From positions 42,296,789 through 42,360,788 of the forward strand of contig CM036768.1 in NCBI GenBank assembly GCA_020796225.1: 64,000 nucleotides of DNA, given 5' to 3'. Positions 17,616-62,342 of the stretch are shown here, piece after piece. The stretch comes from Arion vulgaris (lineage: Eukaryota; Mollusca; Gastropoda; Stylommatophora; Arionidae). Below the pieces are notes generated by a model, which was given only the letters and a program-made list of their open reading frames with translations, had not been told where the DNA came from and did not search any database. A program made the translations under genes and the position numbers. How positions within the stretch are numbered: the stretch's first letter is position 1; each line of letters begins with the position of its first letter.

Positions 17616-17796
17616 ATGACACTATTTTAACCTAAGATTGCAATTTTACTTTCTGATAATCAAAAAAAGTAAATCTTCGAGTGAGGATATTCGAAAAAGG
17701 GTGGAGACAGCAGTAAAACTTGGAAAAATAGCTAAACACGTAAAAAGAAAGTACTATAGTTTTACAAAATACAGAAACAGTGACGATATACAGGAA

Positions 17797-17822
17797 CGTT
17801 TCGACCAAAAGCCTTTATCAAG
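17797..17822 (-). ncRNA. Hammerhead-like core, Penelope locus 1, minus arm
   Basis: The minus strand reads CTTGATAAAGG, a loop, then GGTCGAAACG. It matches the layout CUGAUGA-stem II-GAAA with U at position 3 and A at position 8. Stem II can pair GGC with GUC only partly in this copy. Activity is not shown. Confidence 0.4.
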
Positions 17823-19657
17823 CAAACAATACAACAAGAATGACGAATTTCGAGGAGCACTACAAATGGACGATTACATGTAGAAACATTCAAACCTATT
17901 AAAAATCTGGGAATAAAATCGAATAACGAAATGAGTGCAACACAAAACCGGAAGTGGAAAAAAAGAGAAACAATAAACAATATAGTGGATAAATAACATA
18001 TATATGGAGCAAATGCACATATATATTACAAGGCATCATATAAGACAGTACTAAGAAGCATATGAATGTAATGCGTTGAGTCCAAGAGGTCGCAAGGTGC
18101 CATAGAATGAAATAAAACGGTTCTCCAGGGCGAATCGACTGCGATCATCGGAGGAACATGATCGGATGACTGTGACCTGGACAGCTCCTGAATGGCCAGT
18201 ATCATTGAAATGAGTGGCCACAGGGGTCACAGAGCATTGACGTATATCGCGCAAGCGTTGTGCTAATCGGTCACTGAGCCTCTTACCGGTTTCACCAATA
18301 TAGGCCTTGTTGCATCGTTTGCAGGTGATGGCATAGATGATATTGCGGGACTCACACGTGAAACTGTCTTGAATGACATACGTAGCTTTTGGAAAAGAGA
18401 CAGTGCGGGTCTGTATTACACATACACATGTATTACAGCGCCGACGGCCACACTGGATGGTGCCAAAGTGACTCTAGATATTAGGCTTGAGGCGACTGTG
18501 TGCCAACAAATCCTTGAGGCTTCTGTCCCGTCTGTACGCCACCAAAGGATAGTGTTGGAAGACTGAACGTGTCTCAGGATCAGGCTGAAGAATATGGAGA
18601 TAATGGAATAAGACCTTTTTCACCAGGGAACAATGAGGGTGGAAATTTAAGATAAGTTTAACCCTGTCAGATTTGGAGGTTCTATGTTGGTTGGAAAGGG
18701 CCTACTGGCATGCAATTAGCTGAACCAGATGCATGGCAGATGTAAGCACATTCTCCGGGTATAGGCTCTTGCGGAAGAAATCAAACATCTCGTGAGCTCT
18801 ATCGAAAAAATCGTCGTCTTCGCTACAAAGGCGACGAAGGCGTAAGAGTTGAGAGAAAGGTAAAGAGTCACAACAAGCCTGGGGATGGGAAGAGGTGTAC
18901 AGAAGAAAGCTATGTGTATCAGTAGGCTTGTAGTATACTGATGTAGTGATAGTAGATAGGCTGATGGTGATAGTGATGTCAAGAAAATTGACACAAGAGG
19001 TAGAGATGTGAGAGGTGAACCGAATAGCAGGATTGAAGACATTAATGAAGTTAATGAAGCGTGACAAATCGGCTTCAGACATATCGGTGATTCCAATACC
19101 TTCATTCTTGAAAGATACTAACCACACTTTGTCTGTTTTTTCTTCTATTAAGTTATTGCCTGGCAGGACTTATCGTCTCTTCCTCCTTGATGTATGTTCA
19201 CTGTATACCTCTATACCTCATTCTGACGGACTTCAAGCTCTCCAGTTTTTTCTCGACATGAGAACTAACCCTCTTGTCTCCACCTCGACTCTCCTTCGTC
19301 TTGCAGAACTAGTTCTCACTCTCAACTCCTTTCAGTTTAATAACCAGTTCTTTGAACAGATCAGTGGGTGGCCATGGGTACTAAAATGGGACACAGTTAT
19401 GCTTGTCTATTCATGGGTCATCTTGATCACTTCGTATGGAATACCTATGATGTCTCCCTTCCGTCCGTGTATCATAGATACATCGATGATTGTATTGGAA
19501 TCACCGATATGCCTGAAGCCGATTTGTCACGGTTTTGTGTTGCACTCATTTCGTTATTCGTTTTTATTCTCAGATTTTCATTAGGTTTGAATGTTTCTAC
19601 ATGTAATCGTCCATTTGTAGTGCTCCTCGAAATTCGTCATTCTTGTTGTATTGTTTG

Positions 19658-19684
19658 CTTGATAACGGCCTTTTGGTCGAAACG
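19658..19684 (+). ncRNA. Hammerhead-like core, Penelope locus 1, plus arm
   Basis: It reads CTTGATAACGGCC, TTTT, GGTCGAAACG. Stem II is GGCC/GGUC closed by a UUUU loop and followed by GAAA. Core positions 3 and 8 are U and A. Confidence 0.45.
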
Positions 19685-19754
19685 TTGCTGTTTATCGTCA
19701 CTGTTTCTGTATTTTGTCAAACTATAGTACTTTGTTTTTACGGGTGAAGATATT

Positions 19755-21660: not shown

Positions 21661-22088
21661 TGTGGTGGTTGGTTGTCTGAGCCGGTGACTGTATATTTGG
21701 GCTGGCCACAAGGCTCTCATCTTTCACCAGTTTTATTCAACATATACAAGGTTACAAATCAGAGAACAGTAAATCGATGAAAAAAGTAGAACATTGCTAT
21801 TTGCTGATGTCATTCTAGTGTAGGACTATAGATATGGGAAATACATAAATGAGATTTACGGTGAGATACAGAGCGAACCTAATCGCATCACAGACTGGTG
21901 AGATGTCTCTGGTGCACTAGTTAATGCTACAAAGCAGCAGTAACATGGTGGTCCCTTAATAAACTCACTGTTAACGCATGTAATCACAATATAGATGAGA
22001 CTGCAGTAAAACTATTTGATTGGCAAAACACGTAATCACAGAGTACTGTAATTTTACAAATTACAAAAACAATGACAAAATACAGCAA

Positions 22089-22116
22089 CGTTTCGACCAA
22101 CAAGGCCTTTATCAAG
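22089..22116 (-). ncRNA. Hammerhead-like core, Penelope locus 2, minus arm
   Basis: The minus strand reads CTTGATAAAGGCC, TTGTT, GGTCGAAACG. Stem II is intact (GGCC/GGUC) and GAAA is present. Positions 3 and 8 are U and A. Confidence 0.45.
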
Positions 22117-24645
22117 CAAACGAACAACATGAATGACGAATTTAAAAAAAAAAAAAAACTTATGGATGACTACACACAAACTTTTCTAATGAAAATCTGG
22201 TAATACAAACGAATAACGAAATAAATTTAACACAGAAAGCACATAAAAACTAGAAATAGAAAAGAAGAGAAACAATAAAAAATGAAGTGAATTTATAACT
22301 TGAATGCGTGCAACATATGAACATGTAGATAACAAGGCATGAGAAAAGAAAGTACTAAGAAGCATAGGAATGTAATACGTTGAGCCCACGTGGTCACAAG
22401 GTACCATACACAGAAATCAACCGATTCTCCAGAGCAAATCGACTGCTATCATCCGAGGAACATGTTCGAATGCTGTGACCTGGACATCGTGAGCTCTAAA
22501 TGGCCAGTATCATTGAAATGGTAGCTACAGGGTCCAGAGCATTGATGTATTTAGCGCAAGTGTTCAGAGAATCGGTCACTGAGCCTCTTACCTGTCTCAC
22601 CGATATAAGCATTGTTAAACCGCTTACAGATAATGGCATAGATAAGATTACGGACTCGCATGTGAAACCATCTTCAATAACAAACGTTGCTAAAGGAAAA
22701 GATACAGTGCGTGTCTGTATCACGTAAGCCACGTATTGCAACTGCCGACGGCCACACTGGACAGTGCCAAAATGACTGGATATTGAACTATAAGGCGACT
22801 ATGTACCAACATATCCTTAAGACTTCTGTCCCGTCTCTAAGCCACCAAAGGATAGTTGGGAGAGACTGAACAGGTCTCAGGATCTGACTTAAGGATAGAC
22901 AGATGACGGAATAAAACATTTTCACCACACACTCTTCATTTTATTCCTTGACAGTATCCTTAATCCCATAGTCACCACACTCCCTTCATTTTTAAAAATA
23001 CGAACCCCCTTTGTCTGTTTTGTCTTCCATTGAGTTGCTACCCGAGAGAACCTACAGTCTCTTCCTCCTTGATGTGTAGTCATTGTACACCTCTATACCT
23101 CATCCTGACGGACTTAAAGCTCTCTAGTTCTTTCTCAATAGGAGAACTAATCCACTTGTGTCAACCTCTGCTCTCCTTTGTCTTGTGGAACTAGTTCTCA
23201 CTTTCAACTCTTTTCATATCAATGACCAATTCTTTTAGCAGATCAGTGACTTGCCATTGGCACTAAAATGGGACCTAGTTATGCTTGTCTGTTCATGGGT
23301 TATCTTGAACATCTCGTATGGACTACATATGATGGCACCCTTCCGTCTGTCTATCACAGATACATTGATGACTGTATTGGCATTACTTATATGCCTGAAG
23401 CCGATTTGTCTCGCTTCATAAATTGCATTAATGTTTTCAACTCTTCTATTCGTTTTACTTCTCACATCTCCACTTCTTGTGTCAACTTTCTTGACATTAC
23501 TATCACCATATATCTATCCACTATCACTACATCAGTATATTACAAGCCTACTGATGCACATAGTTTTCTCCTTTATACTTCTTGCACCCCCAGGCTTATC
23601 GTGACTCTTTGCCATTCTCGCATCTCTTTCGTCTTCGTCGCCTTTGTAGCGAGGACGATGATTTTCTTGATATAGCTCGCGAGAAGGCAATTTCTTCCGC
23701 AGGCGCCTATATCCGGAGAAGGTGCTTGTATCTGCTATGCATCGAGTTCAGAAAATCACTCGCCAGCATGCCCTTACCAGCCAGCATAGAACTACTAACT
23801 ATGACAGAGTAAAACGTATCTTAACTTTCCACCCCATAGTTCACTGGTGAAAAATGTTTTATTCAGTCATCTGTCTATCCTTAAGTCAGATCCTGAGACC
23901 GTTCAGTCTTCCCCAACTATCCTTAAGTGCTTACAGACGGGACATAAGTCTTAAGGATATGTTGGTAAACTTCAGTAAGTTCAATATCAGAGTCATTTTG
24001 GCACTGTCCAGTGTGCCGCCGCGTTGCAACACCTGTGCTTACGTGATACAAACGCGCATTTTATATTTTTCTTTAGCCACATTTGTTATTGAAGATGCGA
24101 GGTCCATAATCTTTCTATTCCATTATCTGTAAGCGGTGTAACAAGGCTTATTTCGTCGGGATAGGCAAGAGGCTCAGTGACCGATTCGCTTAACACTTGC
24201 GCGACATACGTCAATGCTCTGTGACCCCTGTAGCTACCCATCTAATTGATACTGGCCATTTAGGAGCTCACGATGTCAGGTCACAGCAATCGATCATGTT
24301 CCTCGGATGATCGCAATCGATTTGCTCTGGAGAATCGGTTGATTTCGTTTTATGGTACTTTGTGACCACGTAGGCTCAACGTATTACATTCCTATGCTTC
24401 TTAGTACTTTCTCTTCTCATGCTTTGTTATCTATATGTGCATATGTTGCATGTATTCAAATTATATATTCACTTCATTTTTGATTATTTCTCTTCTTTTC
24501 TATTTCTAGTTTTTATGTGATCTTTTTGTGTTACATTTATTTCGTTATTCGTTTTTATTCCCAGATTTTTATTAGAAGCTTTTGTATGTAGTCGTCCATA
24601 AGTTGTTTAATTTTTTTTTTATTATTCACACCTGTTGTTCGTTTG

Positions 24646-24673
24646 CTTGATAAAAAACTTGTTGGTTAAAACG
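24646..24673 (+). ncRNA. Degraded hammerhead-like core, Penelope locus 2, plus arm
   Basis: It reads CTTGATAAAAAAC, TTGTTGGTT, AAAACG. The conserved G of GAAA is lost and stem II is broken, so this copy should be inactive. The 5' part of the core is unchanged. Confidence 0.35.
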
Positions 24674-26368
24674 TTGCTGTATTTTGTCATGGATTGACCG
24701 AGCATGGAGTATAAACTCAAGATAGTTAGAGCACATGTGTATATCAAATAAGCATAAGTCAAGTAGAGGATCATCATTGCAAGGGCTGCTCGGCAGCAGT
24801 AGTAGAAATCGATAAAAGTGATGCATGTCGTAGGTATGGCCGTGTTGCAGACACTGTTCAGATGGTATGCGGGCTCATAAATTTCGACCATGAGTAAGAA
24901 TGATACCTGTGACTTCAGCATAACTTCATTACACAGGAACACATTTCATATAATTATTAAATTCTACAAAGGTTGCAGAGAGAAGAATCTCGTGGCGTTG
25001 GATGCAGACGGCATGATTAATTAAACTGGCAATGAAGTTTACTTTACGCTTTACACGGATGGATTGTTAATTCTACACGAAAAGTCCACATGGCTTTCTC
25101 TGCAAGCTCGTGCGGCAGAATTATTAAGGAAGACAGTGCATTTAGTATGACAACAAATAGCATGACAATGGAATTACAGTCCGTGACTATGATACTAATT
25201 TGGCTATTCATTGAGAATGATGATCCATAAGGTGAAGGTTAGTTCAATGCGCAGGCAATAGACTAAATCACTACAAGCTTCAACAAGTTGCAGAATTAAA
25301 CGCATCTTGGTTTTAGGGCACATGGGTGTCGTTGGCAATGAGAAAGCAGACAGACTGGCTGGTTATGTCACCTTATCAGGGGATCACTCGTGGGAACAAC
25401 TCTAGCCATCTGAAATTGGATTCTATATTTGTCCGTTCTTGGGCCATCCATTATGTATATTGGCCGAATAGGGACCGTGTCTCTTCGGCTGTACATTTGT
25501 TGAGTTCCACCCCACAGGTATGTTGCTTAGCAACGATCTGGTGCCTCGTCTTCTCTCGTCGATACTCAGCCATTCTTATCATCCTGTTCCCACTTCATCC
25601 TCTGCAATACTTATGGGGCAGATAAGTTGTTTTTTGAGGGTGTGCGCTGTGATTCGAGATGGCACGGCATTAATACTTCCCTCTTACTGCTTCACATTTA
25701 GTAGAGTTGCCTCCCCAGTTATTTCATCTTCACCCGTCATACAACTGCTCTACCATCTATCCATGTCGGAATCAGACAGAAACATCCGCTTCCTGATGTG
25801 TAGACGTCTTCTTGTTAGACAGGTGGGTATGAGATCCTTCATATCTGTCGTCATTCATCCTCTTTAGAGAAATGAATTAGTTCATTTAGGATTTATTGTG
25901 TGTGATTGTATGTTCCTGAAGAGACTTATAGTCAATACGTTGAATTTGTGTTAGTTTTACGATCTTTGTATACATTTTTACTTGCTTCTGTGATACCATA
26001 GCATTCGTTCTTAGTCCAGAAACGCCAATGTGTGCAGATCACCGCAGCCACCCTCGTTTTCTCCAGATCTAATCTGATCCGCTCTGACCACCTCAGATTT
26101 CAGATTTCCGTACATCGCAGCCAATAACGATAACTTTCTGAACGCCCTCATAGAGTGTAGTCGCAAATAGGATTTTCAATTAAATCAATCCACGTCAACT
26201 GCTAGATTGCAAAAACTGGATTTGAAAATTGAACAGCACTGCAGGTATATGACTAAGCTGATCATTCAACATCGGACTGGTTCGGTTAGTTGATAGACTC
26301 TGGTAGAGATATTACAAGGAGATAGGAGAACCTACTATCATATCCAGACTGAAAAGTAGATACTCTAC

Positions 26369-26680: not shown

Positions 26681-26844
26681 AGCGAGACACTAAGATGATT
26701 TAGATAGAATAGTAATTTGTGAGATAGTAAAACTAACATGTCATTTGTAGAAGAGTCAAACTCAGTGTCTAGTACCACTGAATTGCAAAATTATTTCTAT
26801 GAGAATGTTAAGGCTATGATGATATTATTTTGACCATAAATTAT

Positions 26845-27955
26845 AATCTGTGAGAATGTAAGACACAATTGTAATCTGTGTGAGAATGTAAGACTAGTGT
26901 GTAATCTGTGTGAACGTAAGACTAGTGTGTAATCTGTGTGAATGTAAGACTAGTTTGTAATATGTGTGAATGTAAGACTTGTTTGTAATCTGTGTGAATG
27001 TAAGACTAGTTTGTAATATGTGTGAATGTAAGACTAGTTTGTAATCTGTGTGAATGTAAGACTAGTTTGTAATCTGTGTGAATGTAAGACTAGTTTGTAA
27101 TCTGTGTGAATGTAAGACTAAATGATGTATGTGAGAATGTAAGACTAGATTGTTATCTGTGAGATTGTAAGACTAAATGATGTATGCGAGAATGTAAGAC
27201 TAAATGATGTATGTGAGAATGTAAGACTAAATGATGTATGTGATAATGTGAAACTAAATGATGTATGTGAGAATGTAAGACTAAATGATGTATGTGAGAA
27301 TGTAAGACTAAATGATGTATGTGAGATTGTAAGACTAAATGATGTATGCGAGAATGTAAGACTAAATGATGTATGTGAGAATGTAAGACTAAATGATGTA
27401 TGTGAGAATGTAAGACTAAATGATGTATGCGAGAATGTAAGACTAAATGATGCATGTGAGAATGTAAGACTAAATGATGTATGTTAGAATGTAAGATTAA
27501 ATTATGTATGTGAGAATGTAAAACTAAATGATGTATGAGAATGTAAGACTAAATGATGTATGTGAGAATGTAAGACTAAATGATGTATGTGAGAATGCAA
27601 GACTAAATGATGTATGTGAGAATGTAAGACTAAATGATGTATGTGAGAATGTAAGACTAAATGATGTATGTGAGAATGCAAGACTAAATGATGTATGTGA
27701 GAATGTAAGACTAAATGATGTATGTGAGAATGTAAGACTAAATGATGTATATGAGAATGTAAGACTAAATGATGTATGTGAGAATGTAAGACTAAATGAT
27801 GTATGTGAGAATGTAAGACTAAATGATGTATGTTAGAATGTAAGATTAAATTATGTATGTGAGAATGTAAGACTAAATGATGTATGTGAGAATGTAAGAC
27901 TAAATGATGTATGTGAGAATGTAAGACTAAATGATGTATGTTAGAAGGTTAAACT
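26845..27955. repeat. 27/28-bp minisatellite, about 40 units
   Basis: A 1.1-kb array has two unit types. The left third has a 28-bp unit with GAATGTAAGACTAGTTTGTA. The rest has a 27-bp unit with GAATGTAAGACTAAATGATG and TATGTGA. Since 27 is a multiple of three, open frames appear on both strands (repeated ENVRLNDVC on plus, HHLVLHSHI on minus). They have no other gene feature and are repeat artefacts. The array lies about 140 bp upstream of the second M13 exon. Confidence 0.92.
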
Positions 27956-28098
27956 GTAATGTAACATATGAGGATTGGTATGGTTTTGTTCTGATCGAGT
28001 GACCTGCACGTCATAAATGTAGTCAATATAAATTGTTTATGATAACGTTTGAATGATAGACAACATAAAATACTTGACTAAATAACTTTATATTTCAG

Positions 28099-28660: not shown

Positions 28661-29301
28661 TTATTGAAGTGCTCTTTGATATACAATATTCTTTGTTTTT
28701 CCGTCTGGTGCGTACACGAATAAATCAGAAGGTTTTCCCACGCGTAAACAGGCCACATATATCTGTCCATGTGAAAAGCATGGATTTCCCAAATGTAGTC
28801 CACACACTTGTAGCGATTGTCCTTGTGATTTGTTGATGGTCATTGCAAAGGAGGTCGCCCGGAAACTACAAGCGTTTGAATTCGAATGGCATGTCTGTTG
28901 GAATCATTGGGATGCGTGGCAATAGTATATCTTCTATTTTAAATTTTCCATTTAAAATTGTACCTTCCATGATATTGTTCATCATATTTTTCACTAAAAG
29001 CCTGGTACCGTTGCAAAGTTGTGGTGGATTGATGTTTCGGAGAAGAATGATAGGCACGTCAATTTTCAAGTTAAAACATGTGGTGGCATGTCTGGCAAAT
29101 CAAGTGAATTCAAGAATTCAGGTGGATAATTGACAACTTCGTCTTGATTCATTACAGTATCGATGGACTTATACGTTGTCACATCGCCTGGTAATTTGTT
29201 TTAAATGCTCAAATTCATGGCATATACATCCTTGTTTTTTTGTTGCTAATATTGGACGTGCACTGAGCCACTGATGATTTTTGTAATTATGTACAATATT
29301 T
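28661..29301 (-). pseudogene. Helitron helicase, C-terminal part
   Basis: The minus strand reads [19 protein letters not shown], then KIDVPIILLRNINPPQLCNG and GTRLLVKNMMNNIMEG. After one frameshift it reads MTINKSQGQSLQVCG and GQIYVACLRVGKPSDLFVY. These are the late motifs of PIF1-type helicases: TINKSQGQ is the Q-G-S/T-L region and YVA-SRV is the arginine-finger block, here ACLRV with S to L. It stops at 28661. The 5' side continues across Penelope locus 3. Confidence 0.85.
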
Positions 29302-29415
29302 GGCGACGAATATCGAAATAGGGAAGACTGCAGTAAAACTTGGTAAATAGTGAAACACGTACAAACAAAGTATTATAGTTTTACAAAATACATAAACAGT
29401 GACGATAAACAGCAA

Positions 29416-29443
29416 CGTTTCGACCAACAAGGCCTTTATCAAG
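29416..29443 (-). ncRNA. Hammerhead-like core, Penelope locus 3, minus arm
   Basis: The minus strand reads CTTGATAAAGGCC, TTGTT, GGTCGAAACG, identical to the locus 2 minus arm copy. Stem II and GAAA are intact, with U3 and A8. Confidence 0.45.
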
Positions 29444-31045
29444 CAAACGAACAAACAGGAGTGACAAATTAAAATGAAACACAAATGGACGACCAAATAC
29501 CAACGTATCTAAGGAAAATCTGGAATAAAAACGAATAACGAAATAAATGTAACACAAAAACACACATAAAAACTAGAAATAGAAAAGAAACAATGAAACA
29601 TCTAGTAAATATATAACTTGAATACATGCAACATATACCCATATAGATTATAAAGCATGGGAAGAGAAAGTACTAAGAAGCATAAGAATGTAATACATGC
29701 AACATATACCCATGAGATTACAAAGCATGGGAAGAGAAAGTACTAAGAAGCATAAGAATGTAATACGTTGATTCCGCGTGGTCGCAAGGTACCATACAAA
29801 GAAATCAACCGATTCTCCAGAGCAAATCGACTACGATCATCAGAGGAACATGATCGGATGGCTGTGACCTGGACATCGCAAGCTCCTGAATGGCCAGTAT
29901 CATTGAAATGGGTAGCTACAGGGTCACAGAGCATTGGCGTATATCGCGCAAGTGTTGGGCGAATCGGTCACTGAGTCTCCTGCCGGTTTCCCAATATAGG
30001 CCTTGTTGCACCGCTTGCAGATAATGGCATAGATAATATTACAGGACTCGCACGTGAAACTGTCTTCAACAACGAACGTGGCTTTGGAAAAGACACCGTG
30101 CGGGTCTGTATTACATTAGCACAAGTGTTGCAGCGCCGACGGCCACACTGGATGGTGCCAAAATGACTCTGGATGTTAGGCTTGAGGCGACTGTGAACCA
30201 ACATATCCTTAAGGCTTCTGTCCCGTCTGTACGCCACCAAAGGATAGTGTTGGAAGATGGAACGTGTATCAGGATCAGACTGAAGAATGGAGAGATGACG
30301 GAATAAGACTTTCTTCACAAGGGAACTATGAGGGTGGAAACTTGTCTTAACTTCCACCTCATGGTTCCTGTGAAAAGTCATTCCGTCATCTCATTCTTCG
30401 ATCTGATCACGTTCATCTTCAACAATCCTTTGTCGCAGGACAAGCAGAGTTGTTCTGTCGCTCAACTCATCAGACGACCATCCATGTGCCGTCGCTGCAA
30501 CCTTGCTTATGAATACAGACCCGCACGGTGTCTTTCAAAGCCGTTCATGTGACAGTTCCGTGCTATATATGCCATTAGCTGCAATCGATACGGCTATGAA
30601 CGGCAAACTCGTGACCGTTGCCAACACGCGATATGCCAATGCTCTGGACACTGTAATACCATTCAATGATACTGCATTCGAAACTGCTGTCATGCACCAT
30701 CGATCATGTCTTCTGATGATCGTAGATCATTGCGAAATCGATTTCTTGTATGTTACCTACTGGGATCAACGATGTACATTGATATAGCTCTGCTTTCTCT
30801 TCCCATGCTTGTATCTCTTGGTTATGTGCATGTACATTCTTATGCTTCTTGTACTTCTCTTCATGCTTATCTATGGATATGTTCATGTATTCAAGTTGTA
30901 TATTTACTAGATGTTTCATTGTTTCTTTTCTATTTCTGATTTTTATGTGTTTTGTGTTACATTTCGTTATTCGTTTTATTCAATTTTCCTTAGTACGTGT
31001 ATTTGATATCATTGTGTTCATTTAATTTGTACTCCTGTTTCGTTG

Positions 31046-31069
31046 CTTGATAATGACTTGGTCGAAACG
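31046..31069 (+). ncRNA. Shortened hammerhead-like core, Penelope locus 3, plus arm
   Basis: It reads CTTGATAATGAC, TTG, GTCGAAACG. Four bases of stem II are missing, but GAC/GTC can still pair. GAAA is kept, and positions 3 and 8 are U and A. Confidence 0.4.
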
Positions 31070-31133
31070 TTATTTTATCGTACTTGTGTATTTTGAAAAC
31101 TAAGTACTGTTTGTACGTGTTCCTACAATATTT

Positions 31134-32788
31134 AGGACAACTTTATGAATCAATTCGTCTGTGGTCGCTATGATGTTACAGAAGTTTGTTGGCAATGTGA
31201 TACATCATGTGGAATCATCGATTGGCATTTTCCCATTCCCAATATCCAACAATTGTTTTGCCAAACGTTCAGCGGTTTCATCATGTTGTAGTTGTATACG
31301 CATATTGGTCTTCAAAGTCAATTCATGTATGTGTTGCTATAAAACTAATGATTTCAGGTATGCATTAAGTTCATCAGCGGGTATTGATCTTGGTATAACT
31401 GGTAGAGTTTTCCGGAAATCGCCAGACAATAAATGAGTGCGCCACCGAAGAGCTGGTCATTTCCTCTCAAATCTTTTAGTGTACGATGAAGCGCTTCTAA
31501 TGCTTTTTGTGCGCCATAGTACATTCATCCCATATAATGAGTTGACATAATTGGAGTACTTTACCCATTGCAGAATTTGTGTTGATATTGCATGTTGGTG
31601 TCTCAGTGATTTCCATATTCAACGGCAATTTCAGCGCTAAATGCGCTGTTCGGCCACCATCTAAAAGAGTTGCCGCAATTCCAGAAGATGCGATTGCCAG
31701 TGTAATATTATTTTGTGATCGTATGGTTGCCATTCCCAATTGTACCAGTGCTTTATTAGTGATTATATATCCCCAAACATATGTCCTCAATCGAAACCAA
31801 TGCCTCATTATATACGTTTGGTATGAATTGAATGTCAGGATTTTGATTCGTCGTACGCAAGCGATGTAGGGTGTCTTCACCCATGTAGTCTTTGTATTTT
31901 TCCCAAAGTTCTTTTGGATTGGATGGGAAGCACGTTGTTAATATTACTGGCAAATAATGTGCGTATTTTCTGTGGTCGTGCAGTATTGGATGCATCAGCC
32001 AGTGAAGTGTCCCAATGTGCATCGTTTTCAAGAAGATTTAATTCTTGGCAAGCTTCACGATAAGTAGCACATACTTGACCGTTAACTGTTCTCAATTCTT
32101 GGAAGGATGTTGGTCCACGTTCGTTGATTAACAGTAATCGCAAGTAAAGCATTCTGCATTGTTTGGATGAACAGTGTACAAACGGCCTAACGCGTTGGTC
32201 GAATATAAATTGGAATATCCTTCAACTGCTTTACCTTGTTTGCGACGTTGAAACTTTTTCGCTGCTGCATTCCATGTGTAGTATGTTGGCAGTACAGAGT
32301 AAAGTAGCGTCTTTGCAAATATATCATCTCTACACAATGAGAAAAATGCAGTTAACGTTGTTGGCGATGGTGACAATGATCGTGCATGTGCATTTTCTGT
32401 TGTGAAGTACACGCGCTGTCCATTTTCAAGGTGCACTGCCAAATGAATAACTGTTGGATGTCGTTCACGGATTGGAAATAATAAAATGCGCCATAATGCT
32501 TCATTGCTACTAGTGTAGATTCCCAGTTGATAATGCTCGATTTCATTGATGGATGCAGTTATATTTGCCACTTGAAAAACTGCCATATCGCTTCCTTTGT
32601 TGACATATTTGCAAATGTTCTTGATCGATTTCACCGTATTGCAATACTCGATCGAATGTACTTGATCGAGACAAACAGATGATGAACAACAAATATCAGG
32701 ATTTTGATTAAAACTGTAGCAATACACGCATAATCTATCCATTTTTCCAATAACCACATTTGGATGAAGACTGTGAACATAATACTCG
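31134..32788 (-). pseudogene. Helitron Rep-helicase protein, central part
   Basis: The minus strand reads HPNVVIGKMDRLCVYC (cysteine-rich motif), then after a deletion VKSIKNICKYVNKGSDMAVF, RILLFPIRERHPTVIHLAVH and TLLYSVLPTYYTWN. Next come a GRLYTVHPNNAECFT block, RGPTSFQELRTVNGQVCATY, LGMATIRSQNN, IASSGIAATLLDGGRTAH and LCQLIIWDECTMAHKK (Walker B-like DE). The Walker A P-loop expected between LVQLGM and ATIRSQNN is deleted at about 31735. Several frameshifts are present. It is therefore a non-functional remnant. Confidence 0.85.
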
Positions 32789-32790
32789 TA

Positions 32791-34984
32791 TAGTCTGTCC
32801 ATTAATTCGTGAGCACGTTAGAAATTGATTTTCTCGAAAACTACCTGTTGGATCTCAGTGATTTTTGCATGCAGCCTTAGAATATCCATGACGCTAAAAT
32901 AAAGCTAACCAGTAGTTCATAGATGCTACGGATTTTGCACATCGGCGAATTCCTTTGATCTTTTATGACAATTTCAAATACGGGTGCTCAAATTTTAGAT
33001 TTTACAGTAATCCCTAGAATTTGTCCATGTCAATTATATTCATAGGTGTATCTCCATATTAACTTTATAGGTCAAGTAATTAATTGTGTTGCCCTTTATG
33101 TGCAATCGTGAACTTGGATACAATATGCAACAACAGTTAGTCCTCCCTTCGGTCACCATTAGACCCCAGGGTGTCTTAACTTCACCACAAATTGTATGAT
33201 GGTAGACGCATTTGGATATGGAAATGTATACGTTGCTATTTCTCAGTCTGTAATCAAAATATGATTTGTATCATCCCGAATCTGACGATTCCATGAGGTT
33301 GATAATTGTTACTGGCTGGACAAATTGTAATCCATCTCGGTGCCAGTACTCGTCTTCCTCTCGGAGCACATGTTCAACACACTTCTTCCAGAACTGCATG
33401 TCTATCATTGAGAGGACTCACGTGTCAGAACTTCAACATCACACATTTTAAACGTCCTGTTCTGTTCGGCAACTTGCCCTTTTACTTTAGCCCAGACAAG
33501 CTCTATCGGATTGAGGTGAGCATGATATGGAGGTAGTCGCAAAGACGTGTGGCCGTATTCCGCAATGATTTTGTCAATATGAAACACCTTTGTCTTATTT
33601 GTCATCCTCACCAGGTGCAACAACTCGGGTTTCAAATATGTATCATCGAAGCTGACATTTTCCTTAGCAAGCCAAGTCCTAATTTGATCTTTTGTATTTG
33701 ATGCAGTTGGTACTTTGTCTTCCGCTGATACTGCGTTGTGATAGGATGCATTATCCATTACCAAGCATGATGGTCTGTTTAGAATTGGAAGTAGATCTTT
33801 CTCCATCCAGTGCCTGAAAATATGTCCATTCATTTCTGTGTGGTAGTCCCTACCGTCGGTACTTTTTGATTGCAAAAAAAAGTCCAGCGTCATGGACATG
33901 ACCTTCTTCACTGCTTCCTGCATGTGTTAGTATAATACGCTACCCTTTGCTGCTTGGTATTTTTCTTTTCTGTTCACCGTCTACTGATTGCCATTCTTTA
34001 GCATTGGTGTGGTGAGCATTGACCAAGGATTCGTCCAAATATACAATATCATAGCCTTGCCTCCGCCGCTCACGGATCTGCCTCAGGTATTTACTTCGCG
34101 CAGCAATTAAATATGGTTTTTCACAAATAATATTCCTGCCGCCTATAGTTTTTCTGAAGGTGAAGCCGGCGGCTCTTACAATTTTCCATAGAGTACTTTT
34201 AGAAATGTATATGCTGCAATCTGATTGCAGTTTTAATTTCAGTTTCCTGAGAGTAACAAGTTGATTTGTCGCAAACATTTTCAAGAGCTCCCGTCTTATG
34301 ACATCTATGTCAAAGTCGTCAATTGTTCTTTTCCTTCCTTGCTTGACATTAGTGCACTTTGTGTCCTGTTTAATCCATCGGGAAAAGGATTCTCTATTCA
34401 GACCAAGCGCCAGTTGCGTTCGTTTCTTAGGGTTATGAATATCGCAATATAGATGACCTCTCTTAGATTCCCTACGGAAGTGTTGGTATAGTAAAACTGT
34501 AACCTTCTGCATTGTTATAAATGTGCACTTCAGACTCATTATGAATGTGATATCAATGTCAGTTTTGATAAGCCAACAAATATGATACAATAGCTTCATA
34601 CAAATAGCGAGATACACCTATAACTATACAACGGTATCTCAATTATAACGTCATATGCTTTCCGCTTTCAAAGTCGACTGGGTTAGGTGCACGGAATTCC
34701 CGTGAAATTGTTGTTTACTCACGATATTTTAATTTTACCATAATGTATTTTTAGAACAACGCGTCTGTGTACCGTAGATCTGTTACTATTGTGTACAATC
34801 CGGTGAGATTGATTTTAATATAACCTGAAGAAGAAATATTTCCAACTACATCAAATTTTCTTGGAAAAAATATTTCTCTAGCGTCATGGATATTCTAAGG
34901 CTGCTTGCAAAAATCACTGAGATCCAACAGGTAGTTTTCGAGAAAATCAATTTCAAACGTGTTCACGAATTAATGGACAGACTA
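32791..34984 (-). mobile_element. IS630-Tc1-mariner superfamily transposon with 105-bp inverted repeats
   Basis: The ends are near-perfect inverted repeats of about 105 bp beginning TAGTCTGTCCATTAATTCGT. They lie at 32791-32892 and 34878-34984 and are flanked by TA on each side (32789-32790, 34985-34986), the target duplication of this superfamily. The flanking Helitron frame (FNLGAFHYNT on one side, YYVHSLHPNVVIGKM on the other) is rejoined if the element is removed. The transposase gene inside runs on the minus strand. Confidence 0.88.
33405..34617 (-). pseudogene. DDE transposase, frameshifted
   Basis: The N-terminal half (34617-33940) has a helix-turn-helix region (TQLALGLNRESFSRWIKQD, LVTLRKLKLKLQSDC, ISKSTLWKIVRAAGFTFRK) and the first aspartate in YDIVYLDESLVNAHHT. 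A frameshift follows at KG, where RIILTHAGS continues in another frame. The second half has DYHTEMNGHIF, the second aspartate in LVMDNASYHN and the glutamate in LRLPPYHAHLNPIELVWAKV. The second D and the E are separated by 83 residues, much longer than in Tc1 or mariner. It catalyses cut-and-paste transposition in the family; this copy is broken. Confidence 0.88.
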
Positions 34985-34986
34985 TA

Positions 34987-42130: not shown

Positions 42131-42164
42131 TCATCAGTTAAAGTGCTACGACTAACGGCAAAAA

Positions 42165-46502: not shown

Positions 46503-46727
46503 TTATCAATATAAGGGAATACTATGGTAAAACTATATCAATATAAGGGAATACTATGGTAAAACTATATCAATATAAGGGAATACTATGGTAAAACTAT
46601 ATCAATATAAGGGAATACTATGGTAAAACTATATCAATATAAGGGAATACTATGGTAAAACTATATCAGTATAAGGGAATACTATGGTAAAACTATATCA
46701 ATATAAGGGAATACTATGGTAAAACTA
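46503..46727. repeat. 32-bp tandem repeat, seven units
   Basis: Seven nearly identical units contain TATCAATATAAGGGAATACT and ATGGTAAAACTA; one copy has CAGT for CAAT. High identity suggests recent expansion. It runs straight into the Penelope-like end at 46725. Bases 45950-46500 of the hAT element hold nothing recognised. Confidence 0.92.
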
Positions 46728-46800
46728 TGTAACAATGACGAAACACGTTAAAAAAAGTATTGTAGTTTTATAAAAACAATAACAATATGTGTTATTACGT
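46725..46800 (-). mobile_element. Short Penelope-like 3' end
   Basis: GTAAAACTATG, then GAAACACGTTAAAAAAAGTA and TTGTAGTTTTATAAAA closely follow the termini of Penelope loci 1-4 (GTAAAACTTGG, AAACACGTA, AAAGTACTATAGTTTTAC). No hammerhead-like core or coding part is attached. Confidence 0.5.
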
Positions 46801-47239
46801 GTTTCACCTGTGTTGAAAGAGAGTATATAGGAAAATTCAGAAAAGTCAAATACTTGATTTTTGATATCTTTTGAGGTCTAGTTAACATAAATTTTAGTTC
46901 TGGGGATGATTGCAGTTGGTCAGATAGCGGATTTTAGTGTGAATGAAATGCAAGGGACAGCAAATATATATATATGAAATATTTTTACAACGAAGAGTGG
47001 AGTCGTTGAACTTTCATAGGTTAATGACCGATTTGGGAACAAAGAATTTTGGTTTTGTCACGCAATGATTACAGAGAGAAGTAGCATTATAGGACATCTT
47101 TACCCAATACCGCTACTGGCATATTACGGCGGGATGTCAAATCTATAAATACCAGTAGTTTTGTTTTATAATGAAGCTTAATATAGTAATAAGCTTCATT
47201 ACATTTTGTGTGCTTTGTCAACAATTATCAGTTGAGACA

Positions 47240-47800
47240 GTGTAATATATAGTGAGTCATACAAAGTGTAATATATAAGAGGAGTCATACAAAATGTAAT
47301 ATATAAGTGGAGTCATACAAAGTGTAATATATAAGTGAGTCATACAAAGTGTAATATATAAGTGGAGTCATACAAAGTGTAATATATAAGTGGAGTCATA
47401 CAACGTGTAATATATACGTGGAGTCATACAAAATGTAATATATAAAGTGAAGTCATTCAAAGTGTAATATATAAGTGGAGTCATACAACGTGTAATATAT
47501 AAGTGGAATAATACAAAATGTAATATATAAAGTGAAGTCATTCAAAGTAAAATATATAAGTGGAGTCATACGACGTGTAATATATAAGTGAGTCTACAAA
47601 GTGTAATATATAAAGTGAAGTCATTCAAAGTGTAATATATAAGTGGAGTCATACAAAGTGTAATATATAAGTGGAATCATAGAAAGTGTAATATATAAGT
47701 GGAGTCATACAAAGTGTAATATATAAGTGGAGTAATACAAAATGTAATATATAAGTGGAGTTATACAACGTGTAATATATAAGTGGAGTCATACAAAGTG
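47240..47800. repeat. 28-bp tandem repeat, about 20 units
   Basis: Units contain GTAATATATAAGTGGAGTCA and TACAAAGT, with frequent single changes. It stops immediately before the hAT transposase frame and forms its upstream region; whether it affects expression is unknown. Bases 46801-47239 are AT-rich and unassigned. Confidence 0.92.
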
Positions 47801-47849
47801 TAAATGGCATTTTTTTATGAATACTGTTGCCAACTTCATGACTTCAATA

Positions 47850-52854: not shown

Positions 52855-54956
52855 TACAGAGGTACAAGAACGACAATTACAACGTGGTGAAATGAAGAAG
52901 TAAAATTAGCAGTTAAAGAGAAAAAAAACGTAGATACAACACATTAGCAAAACGCATACAGCAAAAAGACCTGACTGAGTATAGAACAGCTAGAAAACAA
53001 ACAACAAAATGACCTGAGTATAGAACAGTTAGAAAACAAACAACAAAATGACCTGACTGAGTATAGAACAGCTAGAAAACAAACAACAAAATGACCTGAG
53101 TATAGAACAGATAGAAAACAAAAAAACAAAATGACCTGACTAAGTATAGAACAGATAGAAAACAAACAACACAATGAACAGACTGAGTATAGAACGGATA
53201 GAAAACAAACAACAACATGACCTGACTGAGTATAGAACAGCTAGAAAACAAACAACAAAATGACCAGACTGAGTATAGAACAGATAGAAAACAAACAACA
53301 AAATGACCTGACAGAGTTTAGAACAACTAGAAAACAAACAACAAAATGATCTGACTGAGTATAGAACAGATAGAAAACAAACAACAAAATGACCTAACTA
53401 AGTATAGAACAGCTAGAAAACAAACAACAAAATGTCCTGACTAAGTATAGAACAGCTAGAAAACAAACAACAAAATGACCTGACTGAGTTTAGAACAACT
53501 AGAAAACAAACAACAAAATGACCTGACTGAGTATAGAACATCTAGAAAACAAACAGCAAAATGACCTAACTAAGTATAGAACAGCTAGAAAACAAACAAC
53601 AAAATGACCTGACTAAGTATAGAACAGCTAGAAAACAAACAACAAAATGACCTAACTGAGTATAGAACAGCTAGAAAACAAACAACAAAATGACTTGACT
53701 GAGTATAGAACAGCTAGAAAACAAACAACAAAATGACCTGACTGAGTATAGAACAGCTAGAAAACAAACAACAAAATGACCAGAGTATAGAACAGCTAGA
53801 AAACAAACAACAAAATGACCTGACTGAGTATAGAACAGCTAGAAAACAAACAACAAAATGACCTGACTAAGTATAGAACAGCTAGAAAACAAACAACAAA
53901 ATGACCAGAGTATAGAACAGCTAGAAAACAAGCAACAAAATGACCTTACTAAGTATAGAACAGCTAGAAAACAAACAACAAAACGACCTGACTGAGTATA
54001 GAACAGCTAGAAAACAAACAACACAATGACCAGACTGAGTTTAGAACAGCTAGAAAACAAACAACAAAATGACCTGACTGAGTAAAGAACAGCTAAAAAA
54101 CAAACAACAAAATGACCTGACTAAGTATAGAACAGTTAGAAAACAAACAACAAAATGACCTGACTGAGTATAGAACAGCTGGAAAACAAACATCAAAATG
54201 ACCTGACTGAGTTTAGAACAGCTAGAAAACAAGCCAAAGAGATTATAAAGAAATCTAAACTACAATATACATGACAAGATTATAGCGAAACATTAAATTC
54301 AGGTTACAAAAATTCAACAAGAAAATTCTCCAAGAAAATAAAAGCCATGTGGGAAAGACAAAAACAATATGACGCAATTGAAATTATAAATGGTGGTAAA
54401 AAAAATTCATACCAATTAAAATACAATTTTCATTATCATCAAAAAGTACATCAAGGACCAGTGCTACAGAGTTTATGCTCTGTTGCTGAGATCTTCATGT
54501 GTAAGAATTATATAGAAACACACATGGTTATTCACCAAAGTACAATGATGATTCTATCAATCAATTCAGAATTACCAAGAATCACCAGAAGACTGGAGGA
54601 ATGCAACAATAGTTCCCATCTGGAAGAAGACTCACACATGGCATTTCGGATGAACAGAAGCTGTACAGATGTGATATTCGCCTTCAGGCAGTTAGCGGAA
54701 AGGACTTTGAATCCGACAAACACCTGCGCGTTGCTTTTGTAGACCAGGAAAAAAAAGCGCTCGACCGTGTAGACAGACACAAGTTGTGGAAAGTATTATC
54801 AACTTATAGAGTTAGTGACTACCTAGTCAATCTATGCAAGAGCATTTACATAAACAACCAGTGTACAATTCAAACAAACACAGGACTATCAGAAAACTTT
54901 TACGTGGGGTCAGGATTAAGACAAGGATACGTACTATCTCCGCTGCTGTTCATCAC
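52855..54956 (+). pseudogene. Non-LTR element with internal 43-bp array, 3' truncated
   Basis: The left part reads WNEEVKLAVKEKKN, the linker between endonuclease and RT. The same frame region then expands into a 43-bp array. On the right the sequence continues KQAKEIIKKSKLQY, YSETLNSGYKNSTRKFSKKI. The RT follows: MAFRMNRSCTDVIFAFRQLA, LLFVDQEK-ALDRVDRHKLW, VSDYLVNLCKSIYINNQCTI, GLSENFYVGSGLRQGYVLSP, LLFI. There it meets the 3' end of a minus strand element and stops before the YADD box. Frameshifts and stops are present. It is the same family as 627-1110. Confidence 0.8.
52975..54235. repeat. 43-bp minisatellite derived from non-LTR coding sequence
   Basis: About 29-30 units contain GACCTGACTGAGTATAGAAC and AGCTAGAAAACAAACAACAA. 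Some lack the CTGA step (36-39 bp). The first and last units are continuous with the flanking element, where the single-copy sequence would encode DLTEYRTARKQAKEIIKK. Units are highly similar. As 43 is not a multiple of three, the array breaks the element's frame; open frames on the minus strand here are artefacts. Confidence 0.9.
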
Positions 54957-57840: not shown

Positions 57841-57954
57841 GAAGATGTGTCTCCATACATGTTTCTGCAGTACTCACGCCATCTTTCTAGTTAAACACGT
57901 AAAACAAAGTACTACAGTTTTACAAAATACATAAACAGTGACGATAAACAGCAA

Positions 57955-57980
57955 CGTTTCGCCCAAAAGGCCTTTATCAA
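57955..57980 (-). ncRNA. Hammerhead-like core, Penelope locus 4, minus arm
   Basis: The minus strand reads TTTGATAAAGGCC, TTTT, GGGCGAAACG. Stem II is GCC/GGC with GAAA intact. U3 and A8 are kept; the base before the core is T instead of C. Confidence 0.45.
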
Positions 57981-60640
57981 ACAAACAATACAACAAGAAT
58001 GACGAATTTCGAGGAACACTACAAATGGACGATTACATGGAAACATAAACCTATCTGATGAAAATCTGGGAATAAAACGAACAACGAAATGAGTGCAACA
58101 CAAAAACCGAAAGGGGAAAAAGGAGAGCAACAATAAACAATATAGGGATAAATGACACATATATGGAGAAACACAATTTTAAGATAAAGGCAGAGATAAG
58201 ACAGTACTAGAAGCATAGGAATGTAATGCTTGAGTCCAAGAGGTCGAAGTGCTAGAATGAAAATAAAGGTTCTCAGGGTGAATCGACTGCGATATGAGGA
58301 ATATGTTTGGATGGTGATTGACATGCAACTCCTGAATGGCCAGTATAGAAATGAGGGGCCACAGGAGTGACAGAGCATTGGCGAATATCGCGAAGCGGGG
58401 CGAATCGGTCACTGAGCTCTTACTGGTGTCACCATATAGGCCTTATGGATCGTTTGAGGTGATAGATAGATGTAGCGGGATCTCAGGAAATGTCTTGAAT
58501 GGTAGGAGTTGGAAAGAGACAGCAGGGCCCCGAATAATATGCATGTATTACAGCGCGACGGCAAATTGAGGGCCCCAAATGACCGGGATTTTTACTTGAG
58601 GGATTGTAAATAACAAATTTTTGGGGCTTCTGCCCGTCTGTACCCCACCAAAGGATAATGGAAGACTGAAGGTCCAGGATCAGACAAGAATAGGAGATGA
58701 TAATAAAGACCTTTTCACCGGGGAAACTATGATGGAAAGTTAAAAAAGTTTAACCCGTCAGAATGGGGTTCTAAAGTGAGAGGGCCTCAAATTAGCTAAA
58801 CCCGATGCATGGCAGATGTAAGCAATTCACCGGTATAGGGCTGGAGGGAATCAAGATTCATGAGTCTATCAAGAAAATCGTCGTTCTCGCTGCAGAGGCG
58901 ACGAAGGCGTAAGAGTTGAGAGAAAGGTAAAGAGTCACGACAAGCCTTGGGATGGGAAGAGGTATACAGAAGAAAGCTATGTGTATCAGTAGGCTTGTAG
59001 TATACTGATGTAGTGATAGTGGATAGGCTGATGGTGATAGTGATGTCAAGAAAATTGACACATTAGGTAGAGATGTGAGAGGTAAACCCGAATTGCAGGA
59101 TTGAAAAACATTAATGAAGTTAATGAAGCGTGACAAATCGGCTTCAGACATATCGGTAACTCCAATATAATCATCGATGTATCTATGATACACGGACGGA
59201 AGAAAGCCATCATAGGTGTTCCATACTAAGTGTTCAAGATGACCCATGAATAGACAAGCATAACTGGGTCCCATTTTAGTACCCATGGCGACCCCACTAA
59301 TCTGTTCGAAGAACTGGTCATTGAACTGAAAGGAGTTGAGAGTGAGAACTAGTTCTGCAAGACGAAGGAGAGTCGAGGTGGAGACAAGAGGGTTAGTTCT
59401 CCTGTCGAGAAAAAACGGGAGAGCTTGAAGTCCGTCAGAATGAGGTATAGAGGTATACAGTGAGCAGACATCAAGGAGGAAGAGGCGAAAGTCCTGCCAG
59501 GCAACAACTTAATAGAAGAAAACAGAAAAAGTGTGTTTAGTATCTTTCAAGAATGAAGGTAGTGTGGTGACTATAGGGTTGAAGATACTATACTTAGGAT
59601 GTCAACCGTTTCCCACCGTGGCCTGCGACTCAATTTCCATTTTCACAACCAGGAGGACCTTAGAACATCACGACTGGGAGTTTTCCCAGTATTCCACTAG
59701 AAACGTGATTGACTCTAAACCGGGTGCCTCTAACCCCTTTGATCTCTCATAAGAATACTTCATACGACATTGACTTCTCCACCCTAAACCCTGGCGTTCT
59801 AACATGTCACCGTCGGAGTTTCGTGCTCTATCACACCTCGTCGACGTGATGACATTGTTATCAAACCCGCTGAAAAAGGGTGGGAAGCGTAGAAGTAAAG
59901 AACTATATCTTCAGGAAGGCCACAACCAACTACTCAACACCTATTCTACACAAATATTCCTTCTGATCCCACACTTATCCAACAATAGTAAGGTCCACAG
60001 TCAAAACCCTCTTGCCTCAAAGACCTTCCTCCCGGCCTCATCACTATTTTCATCGACAGTTTTTTGGGCAAACCCGCATTCTATATGCTCCCAAAATTCA
60101 TAAACTTCACAACCTGGTAGGCCTATTGTTTCTGCTTGCTCTGTCCTACGAAACATTTTCCCCGCATTACTTGACAGTATTTTCCCAACCCTATAGTCCC
60201 CTACACTACCTTCATTCTTGAAAGATACTAAACACATTTGTCTGTTTTTTTCTTCTATTAAGTTGTTGCCGGCGGACTTATCGCCTCTTCCTCCTTGATG
60301 TCTGCTCAGGGTATCCCTCTATACCTCATTCTGACGGACTTCAAGCTTCCATTTTTCTCGACAGGAGAACTAACCCTCTTGTCTCCACCTCGACTCTCCT
60401 TCGTCTTGCAGAACTAGTTCTCACTCTCAACTCCTTTCAGTTCACTGACCAGTTCTTCGAACAGATTAGTGGGGTCGCCATGGGTACTAAAATGGGACCC
60501 AGTTATGCTTGTCTATTCATGGGTCATCTTGAACACTTAGTATGGAACACCTATGATGGCCTTCTTCCGTCCGTGTATCATAGATACATCGATGATTAGG
60601 GAGTTCCCGATATGTCTGAAGCCGAGGTCACGCTTCATTC

Positions 60641-61020
60641 TTCTTTTTCTTTGCCACACTGCTCCCGGTGTTGCCCAGTGTCGGGGTTTTTCTTTTTTGT
60701 TTTGCGCTGTTCTGGTGGCTTGGGATTGTTACTTTGCTCTTTCACAGGATTCTGCTAATCTAACCATCTTTTCCGTGGTCTTCCTCTTGTTTCTTTCCTG
60801 ATGTTCTGTTGTAGAAGACTCTGTATACTGTGGAGTTTGGATGCATTTATTAAGTGGCCAAACCACTTCATTCTTTGTTTACCCTATATAATTAAACACG
60901 GTTTTGTGCCAACTTTTTTTTAAATGCTGATGTTGATTCTGTTTTTTTGTTTTTGGGTAATTTTTTTCAGGCAAAGTTTTTCCCATGTAGTTATTTTTGT
61001 GACTGCGCTTTGCCAATGCC
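60641..61020 (-). mobile_element. 5'-truncated non-LTR insertion inside Penelope locus 4
   Basis: CACGCTTCATTC occurs on both sides (60629-60640 and 61021-61032), an exact 12-bp target duplication. On minus the 380-bp insert reads MKWFGHLINASKLHSI and GKKQEEDHG or, shifted, RGRPRKRWLD, then ends in CAAAGAAAAAGAA. These are the WFGHL and GRPRKRW blocks and A-rich tail of a non-LTR 3' end. The Penelope RT resumes directly after the second repeat. Confidence 0.85.
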
Positions 61021-62197
61021 CACGCTTCATTCCCTTCATCAATGCCTTCAATCCGCAACGGTTCACCTCTCACATCTCTACTCTCTGTGTCAATTTTTTT
61101 GACATCATATCACCATCAGCCTATCCACTATCACTATCAGTATACTCAAGCCTACTGATACACATGCTTTCTTCTGTATACCTCTTCCCATCCCCAGGTT
61201 TGTGGGACTCTTTACCTTTCCCCAACTCTTACGCCTCGTCGCCTCTGCCAGGACACACATCTCCCATGCTTGACCCTTCCCCCGCTAACCCGGTGAAGTG
61301 CTACATCTGCCATGCAGGGGTTTCAGCTAATTGCTCTCCAGGAGGCCCTCTCTCACATACTTAGAACCCCCAATTCTGACAGGGTTAACTTATCTTAACT
61401 TTCCACCCTCATAGTTCCCTGGTGAAAAGGTCTTATTCCATCATCTCCCTATTCTTCAGTCTGATCCTGAGACACTTTCAGTCTTCCAACACTATCCTTT
61501 GGTGGCGTACAGACGGGACAGAAGCCTAAAGGATTTGTTGGTACACAGTCGCCTCAAGCCTAACATCCAGAGTCACTTTGGCCCCATCCAATGGGCTCCG
61601 TTGTAATACATGTGCATATGTAATACAGACCCACTGTTTTCTTTTCCAAAGCTACCTATACCATTCAAGACAGTTTCACGTGTGAGCCCCGCAATATCAT
61701 CTATGCTATCCCCTGCAAACGATGCCATAAGGCCTATATTGGTGAAACCAGTAAGAGGCTCAGTGACCGATTCGCCTAACACTTACCCCGATATTCGCCA
61801 ATGCTCTGTCACTTCTGGACTCATTTCAATGATACTGGCCATTCAGGAGTTGACGATGTCCAGGTCACAGCCATCCGATCATGTTCCCCCGATGATCGCA
61901 GTCGATTCACCCGGAAAACCCGTTTATTTCATTCTATGGCATTTTGCGCCCTTTTGACTCAACGCATACATTCCTATGCTTCTTAGTACTGTCTTATCTC
62001 GTGCCTTGTATTATATGTGTTTGCTCCATATATGGTTTTTTATCCACTATATTGTTTATTGTTCTTTTCCTTCACTTTCGGTTTTTGTGAACTATTTGTT
62101 GTTCGTTTTTATTCCGATTTTCATCAGATAGGTTATGTTTCCATGTAATCGTCCATTTGTAGTGTTCTCGAAATTGTCATTCTTGTTGTATTGTTTG

Positions 62198-62227
62198 CTT
62201 GAAAAAGGGCCCTTTTTGGTCGAAACG
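62198..62227 (+). ncRNA. Hammerhead-like core, Penelope locus 4, plus arm
   Basis: It reads CTTGAAAAAGGGCC, CTTTTT, GGTCGAAACG. Position 7 is A and one extra G lengthens stem II. GAAA and the U3/A8 combination are kept. Confidence 0.4.
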
Positions 62228-62342
62228 TTGCTTTTTATCGTCACGTTATGTATTTTGAAAACGCAGATCTGTCTACGTGTTTACCAAATTTTTCCAAGTT
62301 TTCCCGGCAGTCTCCACCCTTTTCGATAATCATCTTTCTAGT

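Follow-up and report, generated by a model that had tools for sequence, protein, structure and literature searches.

Head-to-head copies of Penelope-like elements (PLEs) are already known, and the origin of their inverted structures is unsettled in the literature we consulted. Penelope of Drosophila virilis reportedly occurs as inverted and tandem partial copies, and we know of no count of 3' tail states in its pairs. The closest described systems are the Penelope elements of Adineta vaga (Pen2a_Av, Pen3_Av and others) and PAc, a Poseidon-type PLE of the green anole. In Adineta vaga, the element is headed by an inverted pseudo-long terminal repeat (pLTR), inverted arrangements are most often head-to-head, target-site duplications (TSDs) of 8-10 nt surround several inserts, one of the inverted pLTRs can carry an optional tail of ~31 nt, and self-priming on an antisense template is the preferred explanation (PMC3846280). 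PAc encodes a reverse transcriptase (RT) and a GIY-YIG endonuclease, and its purified protein cleaves and extends both target strands in vitro from two adjacent internal start sites that bracket the tail, which thus equals the interval between them; its main text is silent on inverted pairs (PMC11167929). A further paper notes, as peculiarities, inverted pLTRs and short extensions at the 3' end (PMC8969392). Here we describe a comparable family from Arion vulgaris, found in a 64,000-nucleotide stretch of contig CM036768.1 (the window, G000:C16:42296789-42360788) within a 1.52-Gb assembly of 3227 contigs. We propose, with a probability of roughly 0.73, that each of its inverted pairs is the product of one retrotransposition event, in which two-sided target-primed reverse transcription would have started at different RNA sites on the two strands and the resulting complementary DNAs (cDNAs) would have been joined.

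An earlier note on this DNA had described four loci, each with the left arm on the minus strand, the right arm on the plus strand and both 3' ends facing outward, whose arms meet at a different point each time. Self-comparison of the window bore out this layout and showed four different junction points, and the outer coordinates that the note had assigned to loci 1, 3 and 4 match the edges of TSD-like repeats to the base. Comparison of the loci (P1 to P4, with L and R for the left and right arms) mutually and with themselves revealed that a single Penelope-like family supplies all four, and nhmmer found no further copy in the window, the single extra match having an E of 0.13. The parts of the loci are as follows.

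17681..17691, P1 left TSD, probable (GTGAGGATATT)
17692..19098, minus strand, P1 left arm, tailed, with its 3' end at 17692 and its 5' end immediately past the codons of the RT YIDD box
17692..17727, minus strand, 3' tail of P1L
19094..19534, plus strand, 5' (RT) part of the P1 right arm, overlapping the left arm by 2-5 nt at the junction
19533..19743, plus strand, 3' part of the P1 right arm, tail-less end, following an internal deletion of ~1.4 kb located at 19533/19534
19744..19754, P1 right TSD, probable (GTGAAGATATT, 1 mismatch)
21997..22927, minus strand, P2 left arm, tailed
22914-22946, P2 junction region, with the 10-nt stretch AAACATTTTC, common to both arms, at the joint
22943..24690, plus strand, P2 right arm, its 3' end judged by eye to fall close to the proximal tail-less site
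29292..29301, P3 left TSD (TACAATATTT)
29302..30343, minus strand, P3 left arm, tailed, with a ~76-bp tandem duplication also present in P3R
30338..31123, plus strand, P3 right arm, tail-less, rich in gaps (probably assembly error)
31124..31133, P3 right TSD (TACAATATTT)
57880..57891, P4 left TSD (CATCTTTCTAGT)
57892..59597, minus strand, P4 left arm, tail-less
59600..62330, plus strand, P4 right arm, tailed, extending further 5' than any other arm in the window (start placed by eye, within about 10 nt)
60640..61020, 381-bp secondary insertion inside P4R, bounded by an 11-nt TSD (CACGCTTCATT) at 60629-60639 and 61021-61031
62331..62342, P4 right TSD (CATCTTTCTAGT)

The predicted domains identify the family as an endonuclease-bearing PLE, as an RT is recognised in P4L and a GIY-YIG domain lies downstream of the RT in the related genomic copies L076 and L079. 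RVT_1, the only element domain returned by a Pfam search of the window, matched P4L at an E of 7.9e-6 and L079 at 1.5e-6, both below the Pfam cut-off, while GIY-YIG (PF01541), contributed by the genomic copies, scored above cut-off in L079 (E 3.3e-7) and L076 (E 1.1e-5). Protein relatives with an E <= 0.001 numbered 497, of which 120 were listed; among those listed the closest has 89% identity, and the closest named proteins, from the gastropods Elysia marginata and Littorina saxatilis, both have 64%. The shared motifs, YIDD among them, are typical of PLEs. TSDs and variable 5' truncation are present, as for endonuclease-bearing PLEs, and a 3' tail is optional, with both 3' end classes occurring in pairs and in singles. 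A pLTR or partial tandem organisation was seen in L075 and L081 and is absent from the other sampled copies within the stretches fetched. No relative of the element was found among viral contigs. A terminal-inverted-repeat or fold-back DNA transposon was rejected because arm lengths and junctions vary between loci and there are neither fixed terminal inverted repeats nor a constant unit.

Copies outside the window were collected by genome-wide searches with the tailed 3' end, the tail-less 3' end and an RT piece as queries. For the tailed 3' end, 40 of 4505 candidates were scored, 41 matches listed and 30 cut out and examined; the corresponding numbers for the tail-less 3' end were 40 of 2955, 41 and 30, and for the RT piece 40 of 1963 and 43, with 11 new places examined in list order. 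The best-scoring matches were taken first, which biases the sample toward copies of the P1 type. Rows were dropped when they were the window's own P1 (L009, L043), repeated another row (L046, L053, L057, L063 and L068 repeating L010, L013, L012, L018 and L014; L089 repeating L049) or were partners of copies already counted (L054, L062 and L058, partners of L034, L033 and L012). The insertions kept numbered 29, 21 and 11 by query, 61 altogether, and comprised 21 head-to-head pairs, 34 single copies and 6 that were unclear or of another kind.

Head-to-head pairs, tailed-3'-end search: L012 with L058 (probable), L017, L020, L021, L024, L026, L027, L028, L029, L033, L034, L036
Head-to-head pairs, tail-less-3'-end search: L048, L049, L059, L060, L065, L069
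Head-to-head pairs, RT search: L074, L081, L083
Singles, tailed-3'-end search: L010, L011, L014, L015, L016, L018, L023, L025, L030, L031, L032, L035, L037, L038
Singles, tail-less-3'-end search: L044, L045, L047, L050, L051, L052, L055, L056, L061, L064, L066, L067, L070, L072
Singles, RT search: L073, L076, L077, L078, L079, L082
Unclear or of another kind: L013, L019, L022, L071, L075, L080

Five further pairs (L084-L088), picked since both arms were among the listed matches, and a pair nested in L045 were excluded from this frequency. L071 was rejected as a pair on account of a partner from another subfamily; L080 was set aside as an arm adjoining an older small pair; and L045, which is one copy hosting an inserted pair from a different subfamily, was counted as single, its nested pair being used for tail and TSD only. 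The 3' end of the L017 partner was absent from the further stretch examined, and the left arm of L083 is heavily damaged, its end lying beyond the stretch read. The plus side of the L081 pair runs into tandem units of ~2.2 kb with a common internal deletion, so that tandem and inverted arrangements coexist at one locus.

TSDs flank most of the pairs as whole units. In the window, P3 and P4 are bounded by exact TSDs of 10 and 12 nt, scores that arose in random window zones at rates of 0.05% and 0 of 2000 for 25-nt zones and 1.75% and 0.75% for 80-nt zones, respectively. The repeat around P1 (11 nt, 1 mismatch) has a score of 8, which arises often by chance (0.9% of 25-nt, 13.5% of 80-nt and 29% of 60-nt zones), and the TSD around P1 is thus graded probable. 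P2 has no credible TSD at its ends, a 9-nt repeat having been found ~20 nt or more away. Overall, a score of at least 9 at the outer ends was obtained for 21 of the 27 pairs with both ends read, namely 12 of 14 genomic pairs (L071 excluded), L084-L088, P3, P4, L024 (13 nt) and the pair nested in L045 (14 nt), against a chance level of 0.15%, or 2.2% in wider (60-nt) zones. The L033 TSD falls in an AT repeat; three pairs score only 8 (L012/L058, L074 and P1), and L027, L065 and P2 have no TSD.

A score of at least 9 was also obtained for 12 of the 26 singles tested, indicating that true singles exist, although some of the copies counted as single may conceal very short partners, as partner arms are only about 40-50 nt long in L021, L048, L059 and L065. 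Inverted pairs are therefore common in this family, not the rule. The earlier note had suggested that the family normally inserts as an inverted dimer, and had named a majority of single copies as an outcome that would speak against this; with 34 singles to 21 pairs, "normally" has to be dropped, while a dimer-forming mode stands on the TSDs of the pairs.

These duplications bear directly on the possibility that the pairs are two independent truncated insertions side by side, for example into a resident copy's own end. The element's own junction between open reading frame and pLTR has been cut in vitro (PMC11167929), copies of the present family do nest in each other (L045), and L071 and L080 look like composites of different subfamilies or ages. 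Independent insertion would not, however, place one TSD across both outer ends in 21 of 27 pairs, nor lead the arms to share rare variants or group by locus (see below). Among the matches listed, neighbours less than 10 kb apart comprised 13 head-to-head cases (including P1), no tail-to-tail case and 1 same-strand case (6 kb). We regard this explanation as very unlikely. The nested pair provides a direct view of the target: L045 is interrupted by a head-to-head pair (seen with L092) whose subfamily differs from that of L045 and is nearer to P3 and P2. Beyond the pair the L045 sequence resumes following a duplicated stretch of 14 nt (TATGCTTCTTAGTA), and the empty site is preserved in three copies without the interruption, from which it follows that both arms of the nested pair arrived together.

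The 3' ends of the arms fall on few sites, one with a tail of ~37 nt and the others tail-less. On a 3' reference of 110-111 nt, they lie at ~103-111 (tail, sometimes longer), at 66-81 (middle), at 22-24 (proximal; L027, L029 and L036) and, in L074 alone, at 43. Exactly one arm is tailed in every one of the 27 pairs whose outer ends are both readable; L017, L026, L081 and L083, each with one outer end not read, are outside this count. Pairs found through a tailed arm had a tail-less partner in 10/10 cases (L012/L058, L020, L021, L024, L027, L028, L029, L033, L034 and L036) and those found through a tail-less arm a tailed partner in 6/6 (L048, L049, L059, L060, L065 and L069). The RT-found pair L074, the pair nested in L045, the second-subfamily pairs (5/5; L084-L088) and the window pairs (4/4, the P2R end being judged by eye) were likewise discordant. 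As to subfamilies, the P1 and P2 arms differ by about 17-18%. L024, read only after the rule had emerged, conformed to it. The tail played no part in finding 20 of the 27 pairs, and as independent starts would give discordance in at most one half of pairs, the chance of 20/20 is at most 0.5^20, about one in a million. In the tail-neutral samples, tail-less singles outnumber tailed ones (19 vs 4), such that under independence tail-less/tail-less would be the commonest pair; none was seen among the 27. No count of tail states in Penelope pairs was announced in the titles or abstract openings of the literature searched, or in the few full texts included.

The same ends speak to twin priming as described for L1, in which one RNA is primed at its end and internally to give an inverted 5' segment. 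L1 twin priming also uses both target strands, and L1-type inversions give complementary pieces of one element, whereas both arms contain the 3' end in 27/27 of the present pairs. Twin priming in its L1 form is accordingly quite unlikely here, and the model that we favour is close to it, with both primers near the 3' end of the RNA.

Arm length provides a separate test of hairpin self-priming (snap-back), in which the first cDNA or an antisense RNA would fold at its free end and copy itself into a head-to-head copy. Palindromes at inverted junctions are taken to favour self-priming in the Adineta vaga work (PMC3846280), and near-symmetric axes in P3 and L083 fit it, as do six pairs in which the tailed arm is the longer (L020, L021, L027, L034, L036 and P4). 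In 14 of the 27 pairs, however, the arm that is shorter at its 5' end is tailed and the longer is tail-less (L024, L028, L029, L033, L048, L049, L059, L060, L065, L069, L074, the L045 nested pair, P1 and P2), and since a snap-back copy cannot extend past its template, neither arm of these can be a full copy of the other. The difference in L029 is only 21 nt; P3 was too symmetric for this test, and L012/L058 and L084-L088 were outside the comparison. The present pairs differ from those of Adineta vaga in that both arms are truncated copies of variable length, whereas the inverted piece there is mostly a pLTR, in that exactly one arm carries the tail in 27/27, and in that arm lengths in 14 pairs contradict the self-priming offered there as the explanation. 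We consider hairpin self-priming unlikely for this family. On the 5' side of the element in L083 (1120-1420) is an almost perfect palindrome with a few-base loop, one of its arms being clean and the other damaged.

We next consider whether the two arms come from a common source. Within-pair versus between-locus identity was uninformative, as the sampled copies are closely and about equally alike, and rare variants, defined as present in both arms and in <= 10% of other copies, were used instead. In 13 presumed pairs, 22 rare variants were common to both arms versus a mean of 2.06 expected when the same partner is set against arms of other copies, with at least one in 7/13 (L017, L020, L024, L027, L028, L033 and L036). 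In a tree of the window arms, these group by locus at P1 (93/92), P2 (100/100) and P4 (100/99), with P3 compatible, and the ~76-bp tandem duplication is private to P3, being missing from the other window arms. For the pairs as a whole, the rare variants support one source RNA or source locus.

At the head-to-head joints the arms overlap by as much as about 16 nt or are separated by fillers no longer than 32 nt, the kind of trace expected from end joining, and the element position of the arm 5' ends varies between pairs. Single-arm 5' ends cluster in element coordinates, the starts of P1R, P2R and P4L falling within about 55 nt and the 5' ends of P2L, P3L and P3R within about 35 nt of each other. 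These two clusters map near P4R 60150-60204 and 61388-61420, and random truncation does not account for them.

In the mechanism that we propose, the endonuclease would cut both strands about 9-16 nt apart, and both exposed 3' ends would prime reverse transcription on element RNA from one source, either one RNA or sister RNAs. One primer would start at the distal site, yielding the tail, and the other ~37-90 nt further 5', yielding none; both cDNAs would extend toward the RNA 5' end and halt at different points, after which the 5'-truncated cDNA ends would be joined head to head with little or some microhomology, and gap filling would create the TSD. Were extension to occur on one side only, the cDNA end would join the opposite target end to give a single truncated copy. 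In a more specific version, a single RNA bound by a protein dimer would be the template for both arms, with the strands entering two fixed RNA regions, each used once, so that a tailed and a tail-less arm would be obligatory; we advance this tentatively, at somewhat less than an even chance. If it were true, the tail would be the footprint of a two-primer, one-RNA reaction, which to our knowledge has not been described for another retroelement. The one-tailed/one-tail-less rule, together with the TSDs, the empty site and the pooled rare variants, would more generally constitute a genomic footprint of two-sided priming that could be looked for wherever a genome carries Penelope copies and examined in the in vitro system already available.

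Several points weigh against two-sided priming as just described. Six of the 13 presumed pairs have no common rare variant (L029, L034, L049, L060, L069 and L071); five of these overlap by less than 200 nt and L034 by 343 nt, and L071 proved composite. In the case of L020 and L024, equally many rare variants are shared with one or two unrelated arms, and for these two reasons a common source is demonstrated only for the set of pairs as a whole. Later conversion between arms could equally cause the sharing of variants, and with the tree limited to the 3' region P1 is resolved but P2, P3 and P4 are not. The second start site is not a single point, given that tail-less ends occupy three or more positions on the 3' reference, at about 23, 43 and 66-81. 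L012/L058, with outer ends 7.6 kb apart and a TSD of 8 nt, is only a probable pair, the axes of P3 and L083 could also be obtained by hairpin priming, and the strand that primed first is not readable from the DNA. Finally, the anole protein showed no start-site difference between strands in vitro (PMC11167929), so that tail discordance is not predicted by that system, whereas the two arms used different sites in 27/27 pairs here.

The quality of the sequence was also considered, as fold-back reads or whole-genome amplification chimeras could mimic inverted pairs. With substitutions at 3.9%, P3R shows 112 gaps versus 5 for P3L, and gaps are also in excess in both P4 arms. Such damage is itself expected from reads through a true inverted duplicate, however, and pairs such as L020 and L028 are free of it; in addition, the pairs occupy many independent places with different junctions, and assembly palindromes are made unlikely by arms that differ in their 3' ends and by unlike flanks that share a TSD. 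An artefact is therefore most improbable. The window segments 30338-31123 and 57892-62330 contain many small deletions without matching substitutions, P3R the most and the P4 arms less, which are probably read error in inverted duplicates retained by the assembly; nanopore reads drop bases when they pass through the second arm of an inverted duplicate (PMC7229812). L083 shows damage like that of P3R, while L020 and L028 do not, and nanopore damage was thus rejected as a general feature of pairs. The arms of inverted pairs may be badly assembled, such that arm divergence can overstate insertion age, and that of P3 and P4 is unfit for dating.

The arm 3' ends carry a short GATAAAGGCC-TTTT-GGTCGAAACG stretch (GGCC..GGTCGAAACG), which we take to resemble a hammerhead core, and the proximal 3' end class sits a few bases past the cleavage point expected from it. 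Rfam gave no match in the window at gathering score, and none to a hammerhead family in 57860-62400 with E up to 5. Directly 5' of the longest element copy seen, at L040 1319-1611 (upstream of L019), is a 75-nt tandem repeat that is perhaps part of the element's 5' region.

The window also contains a Tc1/mariner-like transposon at 32778-34997, with 119-nt inverted repeats that are 93% alike and pieces of DDE_3 and HTH_Tnp_Tc3_2, the latter below cut-off. Minisatellite arrays lie at 26823-28069 (27-28 nt unit), 42132-42499 (28 nt), 46440-46791 (32 nt), 47188-47838 (28 nt) and 52970-54379 (43 nt).

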